From: Gemmataceae bacterium
Lineage (GTDB): Bacteria; Planctomycetota; Planctomycetia; Gemmatales; Gemmataceae
DNA length: 64,000 bases
Direction: 5' to 3'
Assembly: GCA_901538445.1 (NCBI GenBank)
Contig: LR594586.1
Location: 310,001 to 374,000, forward strand
Under the pieces are notes generated by a model, which did no database searches, was not told the origin of the DNA, and saw only the letters and a list, made by a program, of their open reading frames with translations. A program made the translations under genes and the position numbers. Shown here piece by piece: positions 6,231 to 49,303 of this stretch; position 1 is the first letter of the stretch, and each line of letters begins with the position of its first letter.

Positions 6231-6293
6231 GGCGAACCCTGAGCGCCAGCGAGGGGGTGCGCCTTACCCCCTCGCTGGCGCTCAGGGTTCGCC
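6231..6293. repeat. Inverted repeat with 28-bp perfect arms
   Basis: The arms at 6231-6258 and 6266-6293 are exactly complementary around the 7-base loop GCGCCTT. The repeat sits between the ceramidase-like gene and the isomerase-like gene, both on the minus strand. Read through, it encodes the spurious peptide pattern NPERQRGG, which I recall as common in over-called Gemmata proteins. It may act as a transcript-end hairpin or be a REP-like element. Confidence 0.9.
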
Positions 6294-28435: not shown

Positions 28436-28523
28436 CGCTAGCCTCAGGCACCAGAGGACAGAACCTCAAAAGTCAGCACAGCAGAAATCCGACGCCCCGT
28501 TGCTCTGGTCTGTCCTCTGGTCC

Positions 28524-28569
28524 GAAACGAAGCGACCCCCAACAACCGTTGGGGGTCGCTTCGTTTCGC
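28524..28569. terminator. Bidirectional terminator hairpin, 21-bp perfect arms
   Basis: Arms 28524-28544 and 28549-28569 are exactly complementary around the loop AACC. The hairpin lies between the convergent DUF2760 and ArsR genes. Both stems end in AAACG/CGTTT, giving a short T-containing tail on either strand. Confidence 0.8.
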
Positions 28570-36976: not shown

Positions 36977-37048
36977 CTGTAGCCGGCCTCTGTGAGGCCG
37001 GGCCTCGGGGAATCCCTCAAGCACCGGCCTCACAGAGGCCGGCTACAG
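36977..37048. repeat. Inverted repeat with 25-bp perfect arms
   Basis: Arms at 36977-37001 and 37024-37048 (core AGCCGGCCTCTGTGAGGCCG) are exactly complementary around a 22-base spacer. It lies downstream of the M48-like lipoprotein gene. No T-run follows. Confidence 0.9.
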
Positions 37049-43925: not shown

Positions 43926-46433
43926 ATGACCCCGGCCGACCAGCGCTCCGAACTCGCGTCGCACTACCTCGACCAGCTCCCGTACCCGCCGTACCCGGTG
44001 CAGGAGGAGGCGCTGCTCGCGTGGTTCACGGCCGAGCAGGGGGTGCTCGTGTGCGCGCCGACCGGCACCGGGAAGACGCTCATCGCCCAGGCGGCGCTGT
44101 ACGAGGCGCTGCGCACGAACACGGTCGCGTACTACACCACGCCGCTCATCGCGCTGACCGAGCAGAAGTTCGCCGAGATGCAGGTGCAGGCCGTGCGGTG
44201 GGGGTTCAAGGCCGAGGACGTCGGGCTCGTGACCGGGAACCGCAAGGTGAACCCGAACGCCCGCGTCCTCATCGTCGTCGCCGAGATCCTGCTGAACCGG
44301 CTGCTCCACGCCGACGGGTACGACTTCTCGCACGTCTCCGCCGTCGTCATGGACGAGTTCCACAGCTTCGCCGACCCCGAGCGGGGCATCGTCTGGGAGC
44401 TGTCGCTGAACATGCTCCCGAAGCACGTCCGACTGCTCCTGCTGTCGGCGACGGTCGGCAACTCGGTCGAGTTCATCAGTTGGCTCGACCGGGTCCACGG
44501 GCGGAAGCTCGAGCTCGTCGAGGGCCGCGAGCGGAAGATCCCGCTCACGTACCGCTGGGTGCCCGACCAGTTCCTCAACGAACTCCTCGTGGACATCGCG
44601 AAGGGCGACGACGCGACCCGCAAGACGCCGGCGCTGGTGTTCGCGTTCAACCGCGACGAGTGCTGGAGCGTGGCCGAGCAGCTCAAGGGGCTCGACCTGA
44701 TGAACCCGGCCCAGAAGGCGGCGCTGAACAAGGAGTGCGACGCGCTCGACTGGCCGCTGGGCGTCGGGCCGAAGCTCAAGCAGATGCTCCGCCGCGGCGT
44801 CGGGGTCCACCACGCGGGGCTGCTGCCGAAGTACCGCCGGGTCGTCGAGGAGCTGTTCGAGAAGAAGCTGCTCTCCGTCGCGCTCTGCACGGAGACGCTC
44901 GCGGCCGGGATCAATCTCCCGGCCCGCTCGGTGGTGGTGACGAGTCTCGTGAAGGGGCCGTTCGGAAAAGAGAAGCTGATCGACCCGAGTTCGGCCCACC
45001 AGATCTTCGGCCGCGCCGGCCGCCCTCAGTTCGACACGGAAGGGTTCGTGTTCGCCTACCCGCACGAGGACGACGTCCGCATCAACCGCTGGAAGCAGCA
45101 GTACGACCAGATCCCCGAGAACACGAAAGACCCGGGACTGCTGAAGGCGAAGAAGGCGCTCCTGAAGAAGAAGCCGGCGCGGAACTCGCAGAAAAAGTAC
45201 TGGACCGAGACCGACTTCGAGCGGCTCCAGAACGCGGCCCCCGCTCGGCTGTACAGCAAGGGGCCGCTCCCGTGGCGGCTGCTCGCGTACCTGCTCAAGG
45301 TGTCGCCGGACGTCGAGAAGATCCGCAGCGTGGTCCGCAAGCGGCTCCTCGACCAGCCGCGGATCGAGGCCGGGCTGAAGCAACTGAACCGGATGCTCAC
45401 GACGCTGCACAACAAGGGGTTCGTGGTCCTCGACCCGCCGCCGCCGGAACAGGAGTCGGGAGTCGGGAAGCAGGAGTCGAGTGTCGGTCGGCAGGAGATT
45501 GTGAAACCGGAGCCGACGCGGGGATTGATCTTCGACATGACGCCGACAGGCCCCGGCGAGCCGGGAGGGTCAGCGACCGGAGGAAAGCTCACTCCGGTCG
45601 CTGACCCTCCCGGCTCGCCGAGCACACCCGCGCGCCCGGAGTACGTTCCGCTCACCGCCACGCCGACCGAGGCGCTCGACAAGCTGCTCGTGTTCCGGGC
45701 GTGCCACCCGCTGTACGGCGCGTACCTCGTCGATCTCATGGCGACCGCCAGCCGCGAGGAGCGGCTCCAGCTTCTTGAGAGCGTGCTCGAACTCCCGCGG
45801 CCGCTGCTCAAGTTCGTTCGCGTGCCGTGGGACCTCAGCCCCGGGCCGCTCCAGACCGAGAAGCTCGACCCGGAACTCGTCGCGAAGGGGCTCATCACCG
45901 CAAAGCCGCCGAAGGTCGAGGGCGAGGAGGAGGACGACGAGGAGTTCGTGCCGTGGGACGAGCGGCCGCCGCTGCTCGCCGAGAAGGCCCGGATGCTGTT
46001 CGACTCGCAGTACCCCGAGGTGTCCGACTTCAACACGACCGCCGTGTGGGCCGCCGGCGAGGTGCTGAACTACGGCAACTTCAACACGTTCGTCACCACC
46101 AAGGATCTGACCAAGCAGGAGGGGCTCATCTTCCGGCACATGCTCCGGTTGATCCTGCTCACCGAGGAGTTCGAGCAGCTCACGCCGCCGGGCGTCGAGG
46201 GCGCGGTGTGGAAGGCCGACCTGAAGGAGATCGCCGACAAGCTCACCGACATCTGCCGCGCCGTGGACCCGACCAGCACCGAGGAAGCGATCAAGAAGGC
46301 GCACGCGGCCGACGTGGTGGAAGGGGAAGAGCACGCGAAGGCGGTGACCGCGACCGCCCCCGATCAACCCGCGTCGCCGGCCGGCCTGACCTCCGACGAG
46401 GAGGACGCCTTCGGGGCGGGACTGATCGAGTGA
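43926..46433 (+). CDS. Ski2-like DEAD/DEAH-box helicase
   Basis: The 835-residue protein has helicase motif I CAPTGTGKTLIAQAAL (about residue 45), motif II MDEFHSF (DEFH), motif III LLLSATVGNS, and the C-terminal RecA domain with VGVHHAGLLPKYRRVVEELF, TETLAAGINLPARSVV and HQIFGRAGRPQFD. These are typical of Ski2/Mtr4/Hel308-type helicases acting on RNA or DNA. A linker from about residue 510 to 570 contains a low-complexity ESGVGKQESSVGRQ segment and an in-frame inverted repeat. An uncharacterised acidic C-terminal region (about 590-835) follows, with EEDDEEFVPWDERPP. It is the first gene after a terminator. Confidence 0.93.
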   Translation: MTPADQRSELASHYLDQLPYPPYPVQEEALLAWFTAEQGVLVCAPTGTGKTLIAQAALYEALRTNTVAYYTTPLIALTEQKFAEMQVQAVRWGFKAEDVGLVTGNRKVNPNARVLIVVAEILLNRLLHADGYDFSHVSAVVMDEFHSFADPERGIVWELSLNMLPKHVRLLLLSATVGNSVEFISWLDRVHGRKLELVEGRERKIPLTYRWVPDQFLNELLVDIAKGDDATRKTPALVFAFNRDECWSVAEQLKGLDLMNPAQKAALNKECDALDWPLGVGPKLKQMLRRGVGVHHAGLLPKYRRVVEELFEKKLLSVALCTETLAAGINLPARSVVVTSLVKGPFGKEKLIDPSSAHQIFGRAGRPQFDTEGFVFAYPHEDDVRINRWKQQYDQIPENTKDPGLLKAKKALLKKKPARNSQKKYWTETDFERLQNAAPARLYSKGPLPWRLLAYLLKVSPDVEKIRSVVRKRLLDQPRIEAGLKQLNRMLTTLHNKGFVVLDPPPPEQESGVGKQESSVGRQEIVKPEPTRGLIFDMTPTGPGEPGGSATGGKLTPVADPPGSPSTPARPEYVPLTATPTEALDKLLVFRACHPLYGAYLVDLMATASREERLQLLESVLELPRPLLKFVRVPWDLSPGPLQTEKLDPELVAKGLITAKPPKVEGEEEDDEEFVPWDERPPLLAEKARMLFDSQYPEVSDFNTTAVWAAGEVLNYGNFNTFVTTKDLTKQEGLIFRHMLRLILLTEEFEQLTPPGVEGAVWKADLKEIADKLTDICRAVDPTSTEEAIKKAHAADVVEGEEHAKAVTATAPDQPASPAGLTSDEEDAFGAGLIE
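45554..45620. repeat. Inverted repeat with 29-bp perfect arms inside the helicase gene
   Basis: Arms 45554-45582 and 45592-45620 (core GCCGGGAGGGTCAGCGACCG) are exactly complementary around the loop GAAAGCTCA. The repeat is read in frame as GEPGGSATGG...PVADPPGSP, at about residues 543-565, in the linker after the helicase core. Confidence 0.92.
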
Positions 46434-46435
46434 GT

Positions 46436-46542
46436 GGGCAGTGGACAGTAGGCAGTGGGCAGTAAAGAGCAGAAAGAAAGGAAGGGCCGCGGCCCGCGTC
46501 CTAAACTGCTGACTGTCCACTGTCCACTGACCACTGTCCACT
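46436..46542. repeat. CAGTGGACAGT-type repeat before purU
   Basis: GGCAGTGGACAGTAGGCAGT near 46438-46457 is answered by ACTGTCCACTGTCCACTGAC near 46514-46533, making an imperfect inverted pair over about 100 bases. It fills the gap between the helicase and purU genes. Compare 24273-24393. Confidence 0.75.
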
Positions 46543-49233: not shown

Positions 49234-49303
49234 CCTGGGACCGCGGGCGTCCCGCCCGCTCTTTGCCTCGCCAAGCAGCGGGCGGGACGCCCGCGGTCCC
49301 AGG
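49234..49303. repeat. Inverted repeat with 27-bp perfect arms between convergent genes
   Basis: Arms 49234-49260 and 49277-49303 (core GGGACCGCGGGCGTCCCGCC) are exactly complementary around 16 bases. It lies between the convergent M24 and DUF1080 genes and may serve as a two-way terminator. It is unrelated in sequence to the other long palindromes in the window. Confidence 0.92.

Follow-up and report, generated by a model that had tools for sequence, protein, structure and literature searches.

How does a long palindrome come to lie in frame within a helicase gene? The locus stands in a 64,000-nt stretch (the window) of a Gemmataceae genome of 7.86 Mb, where the initial annotation had placed an inverted repeat with 29-bp arms inside the helicase coding region and had read both arms in frame. 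Both claims proved exact: the arms are complementary at 29 of 29 positions (100%), are separated by 9 nt and are translated from the plus-strand ORF as GEPGGSATGGKLTPVADPPGSPS (Table 1). The 20-mer core of the palindrome is matched twice in the window, against 0.04 matches expected from shuffling, and the RNA of 45540-45634, which spans it, is predicted to fold at -79.4 kcal/mol (z = -11.1). An Rfam scan of the window returned tRNA only and no known RNA family at the palindrome, which rules out such a family as its identity.

Table 1. Features of the helicase gene in the window (positions are those of the window) and carriers of each repeat family among homologous linkers (L numbers)
Feature	Position or carriers	Strand	Basis
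Ski2-like DExH helicase gene, 835 aa, host of the palindrome	43926..46433	+	ORF, Pfam, PDB profiles, Foldseek, homologues
Hypervariable linker, predicted disordered, about residues 505-577	45440..45658	+	AlphaFold; length variation in 94 homologues
Degenerate heptamer tandem block, unit GGAGTCG, read as ESGVGKQESSVGRQ	45452..45487	+	Tandem Repeats Finder
Palindrome, left arm; family A core begins at 45555, GGCGAGCC...	45554..45582	+	Repeat search; genome-wide family
Palindrome, loop of 9 nt	45583..45591	+	Repeat search and inspected copies
Palindrome, right arm; private variant GAGCCGGGAGGGT	45592..45620	+	Repeat search; genome-wide variant count
Family A linkers	Window species, L049 (different positions)		Pattern match
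Family B linkers	L036, L045, L052, L086, L135		Pattern match; L135 by eye
Family C linkers	L038-L044, L079, L080, L129		Pattern match
Family D linker	L074		Pattern match
Family E linker	L114		Pattern match
Family F linker	L093		Pattern match
Family G linkers	L106, L118		Pattern match
Heptamer-bearing linkers	Window, L036, L082, L136		Pattern match

The host gene encodes DEAD and Helicase_C domains (Pfam), matches Ski2 and Mtr4/Dob1 in a PDB profile search (E down to 4e-69) and finds its best Foldseek matches in Ski2 and Mtr4, so that profiles, Pfam and Foldseek agree on a DExH RecA pair with the Ski2/Mtr4/Hel308 fold. Full-length homologues occur throughout the planctomycetes, the nearest named ones including that of Gemmata sp. 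IIL30, for which reason we assign the genome to a Gemmata. In an AlphaFold model built on 33 homologues the helicase has a mean pLDDT of 80, and residues 510-568 have values near 30, all below 50; the linker is thus predicted to be a disordered loop. It is modelled between two strands (500-503 and 577-580) downstream of a helix pair, a setting that we interpret as a winged-helix wing. The arch of Ski2 and of Mtr4 is inserted in their winged-helix domain. Because the linker is predicted to lie in the wing, the model suggests that it may occupy the place where these two proteins bear the arch.

The palindrome is not confined to the helicase gene. A search of the whole genome found 58 forward and 60 reverse matches to its arms and none to a reversed-pattern control, corresponding to about 60 copies of a repeat that we call family A and that is patchy within the genus (arm matches per genome range from 0 to about 230). 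Among 39 copies inspected with a codon-usage test on 1.5-kb flanks, 36 are intergenic and three lie in frame in genes, namely those for the helicase, MutM/Fpg (L193) and pyruvate carboxylase (L194). The first arm is read in another frame in the latter two than in the helicase, giving two reading frames among the intragenic copies. Since these copies use different frames, the encoded peptide is not conserved. The MutM/Fpg copy lies in an ORF at 1311-2324 on the plus strand of L193, near the N-terminal part of this DNA repair enzyme.

A major question is whether the helicase linker was itself built by repeat insertions, as the initial annotation had supposed. Related genomes and GTDB species genomes searched by tblastn yielded 105 loci and, delimited by the conserved flanks, 94 distinct linkers of 22-124 aa. 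The linkers of distant homologues are not alike; their repeats differ from lineage to lineage, which both supports the supposition and extends it beyond the window. At a minimum arm length of 14 bp, inverted repeats are present in 16 of the 94 linkers, and their arms mostly measure 25-49 bp. Inverted repeats might also arise from GC-rich Gly/Pro codons with no mobile element involved, in keeping with the high GC content and the low-complexity peptide; this reading is rejected by the shuffled linkers, in which 0.26 inverted repeats are expected in the whole set, and by the number of genomic copies of the same sequence against a control of zero, and we give it practically no chance.

The linkers hold at least six unrelated palindrome families along with a heptamer repeat, the family labels being fuzzy patterns of which some single matches are weak. 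Pattern searches made for families B, C, D, E and F and the heptamer show each to be multicopy in genomes that carry it (controls 0); further inverted repeats lie in the linkers of L090, L099, L101 and L111. On a tree of the helicase core, computed with the linker excluded, the inverted-repeat state changes at least 13 times. One clade unites the window species with family A, L036 with family B at the same site, between FDMTP and PARPEYVP, and L037 with no palindrome. The best cases of successive insertion are L038, L079 and L101, each with two or three elements within a single linker. Linkers with repeats are not significantly longer than those without over all 94 (p = 0.22); a difference (p = 0.0004) appears in a Gemmataceae subset that was picked ad hoc by eye and is hence weak. 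Only two of the 94 linkers (L052 and L129) are out of frame; both bear a palindrome and have a length that is not a multiple of three, as fits blind insertion followed by selection, an assembly error at the hairpins being possible. These two loci are either broken helicase genes or assembly errors. The arms stand 49-94 nt apart in L042, L043, L044 and L114, and in L042-L044 they flank what appears to be native linker, not a short loop.

Successive insertion is less firmly backed for the low-complexity block upstream of the palindrome, which had also been taken for repeat DNA. The block is real: Tandem Repeats Finder reports a period of 7 with 5.1 copies at 45452-45487, albeit with a weak score of 37, and a 21-nt super-period at 45446-45487. 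The heptamer recurs elsewhere, with 6 matches in the window's genome, 20 in the genome of L082 and 29 in that of L136 (reversed-pattern control 0). Immediately after the helicase stop codon, at 46433-46542, stand heptamer arrays in inverted orientation (AGTGGGC x 4.4 and ACTGTCC x 4.4).

A second linker shows a similar pattern. The inter-domain linker of pyruvate carboxylase carries family A in frame in the window's genome (L194:1544-1610), D-like palindromes in L217 and L225 of the same genus and a tandem repeat in L216, and it is plain in others. Its total length is steady at 108-138 nt, and in this gene the element takes the place of native linker and does not simply add length.

The family A element is 64-74 bp long and consists of two monomers of about 28 nt (GGCGAGC-N5-GCGTNAGC-N8) in head-to-head orientation, with a loop of 8-18 nt between them; the arm consensus over the 39 copies is GGCGAGCCGGGAGCGTSAGCGACCGGAG. 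In our reading, each arm would fold into a small GTNA-loop hairpin, and two such arms make up the element as a head-to-head dimer. Families A, B and D, which come from different helicase linkers, share GGCGARC-N5-GCGTNAGC-N8 or 9, and because of this common architecture they may be branches of one superfamily; families C, E, F and G lack it. Neither arm end of the family A consensus (39 copies) bears a GTAG or CGTC tag. None of the four Y1_Tnp loci has a family A, B or D element within 1.5 kb, so mobilisation by a resident Y1 transposase is unsupported. Inspecting the 12-nt flanks by eye revealed no target-site duplication at the 39 family A copies, for which there is no clean empty site to compare with; no precise empty site was seen in the helicase either, the closest relatives diverging over the whole linker.

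If an insertion machinery preferred the linker, for instance through a DNA motif in its Pro-rich codons, the repeated insertions would be explained, including those that put family A and family B at one and the same site in two closely related genomes. However, we saw no flanking motif common to the 39 family A copies, the pyruvate carboxylase linker is filled in a similar way, and the rate is that of the background. The density of inverted repeats is 0.915/kb in the linkers versus 0.0195/kb outside the linker in those genes (binomial p = 8e-15), and the same detector gives 0.907/kb between genes versus 0.037/kb within genes in the window, the intergenic value being derived from a single 64-kb window with an in-house gene caller. 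Therefore, the linker carries palindromes at about the intergenic rate. With this rate and without a common flank motif, a targeted site is unlikely.

Once inserted, the arms appear to change together. Excluding one polymorphic site, we counted five paired private arm changes in the 39 family A copies, versus 0.23 expected, and no position that had changed in both arms without matching; at the polymorphic site itself, the arms match in 36 of the 39. The only two occurrences of the helicase copy variant GAGCCGGGAGGGT in the genome are those in the arms of that copy itself, and the arm variant of L042 is likewise limited to its own two arms, all other copies in that genome being 3 mismatches away. 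Arm identity might instead reflect recent elements or replacement by other genomic copies, as could be expected where close relatives hold different families in the same linker; yet the helicase variant is found nowhere else in its genome, and a search within 3 mismatches recovered the L042 variant from its own arms only, which makes this origin doubtful. Since both variants are confined to their own arms, we favor template switching at the hairpin as the process that probably keeps the arms identical. Template switching between the arms of inverted repeats has been described in the coding DNA of yeast (PMC8604942) and also in connection with RNA hairpins (PMC8794818); those systems resemble ours in their homogenised arms and in paired substitutions inside genes, and differ in that here the repeats are inserted elements in bacteria and the process is inferred rather than observed. 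A paired private change is present in all three intragenic family A copies versus one of the 36 intergenic ones, a post hoc and unexplained observation.

Could the hairpin instead be selected in the mRNA, slowing the ribosome at a domain boundary or regulating the message, with various palindromes recruited to this end? It would be very stable (-79 kcal/mol), its complementarity is kept by paired changes, one in each of the three intragenic copies, and palindromes recur in one place. However, 78 of the 94 linkers have no long inverted repeat, the position of the palindrome inside the linker varies, and intergenic copies show the same arm co-variation. In the 62 linkers that hold no repeat of any type, the mRNA is nearly devoid of structure (mean z -0.40), so selection for a hairpin in the message is unsupported as a general rule, and we consider such a role very unlikely.

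We conclude, with a probability of about 0.86, that selfish REP-like palindromes insert anywhere, that the helicase loop tolerates them if the frame survives and that their arms are homogenised. The palindrome in the helicase gene is one copy of a dispersed palindromic repeat, and many REP-like families would have spread through planctomycete genomes in a transposition-like manner, settling mainly between genes. The disordered helicase loop would accept almost any open-frame peptide, so that insertions keeping the frame survive, presumably as neutral changes; palindromes and heptamer repeats would gradually accumulate in it, roughly as fast as between genes and sometimes displacing its native sequence, and arm identity would be kept after insertion, with template switching at the hairpin as the DNA replicates being the most likely cause. 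The helicase loop thus admits stray DNA nearly as readily as intergenic space does, and one orthologous loop in 94 species, with at least six unrelated families at an intergenic-like density, amounts to a natural experiment, run many times over, on selfish palindromes in coding sequence. It offers a direct view of disordered linkers being built from repeat DNA, and the private arm variants can serve as a test of template switching. More tentatively, and with less than even odds, tolerant planctomycete linkers such as the helicase wing and the pyruvate carboxylase inter-domain linker may be landing pads where many palindrome families insert continually, push out native sequence and have their arms homogenised through template switching, which might make repeat DNA a main source of linker sequence in the phylum, its hairpins possibly having a role in the message.

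In-frame palindromes are already known. To go by the summary in a review (PMC10969869), Rickettsia palindromic elements (RPE; Ogata et al., 2000) lie in frame in unrelated protein genes; like the elements described here (in the helicase, MutM and pyruvate carboxylase), they form several families per genome and are tolerated by the host protein. According to that summary, RPE are about 150 bp long with a conserved peptide, whereas family A measures less than half of that and is read in different frames, and here several families enter the same linker across a phylum. Intragenic GTAG/CGTC REPs, including some in DNA repair genes and RNA helicases, have also been reported, with REPs at about the same recB site in two Xanthomonas species (Di Nocera et al., 2013, PMC3733652). 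Family A resembles these REPs as a short stem-loop in a head-to-head dimer that is mostly intergenic (36/39) and sometimes intragenic, but lacks a terminal tag of either kind and a linked Y1 transposase, and that work does not describe a single linker occupied by many families throughout a phylum. Nematomorpha mitochondria have perfect long inverted repeats in translated genes (PMC6649704), long palindromes in coding DNA as in the helicase, although both arms there encode conserved protein and here only a disordered linker. We found nothing in the open-access literature on REPs in Gemmata or on REPs in disordered linkers, and within that literature the repeated invasion of a single linker by unrelated families throughout a phylum appears to be new.

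The window also holds palindromes outside the helicase gene. Family D is multicopy in this genome too, and an intergenic D-like palindrome with perfect 28-nt arms lies at 6231-6293. Further intergenic perfect inverted repeats, belonging to other families, are found at 1727-1770, 28523-28568, 36977-37048 and 49234-49303.
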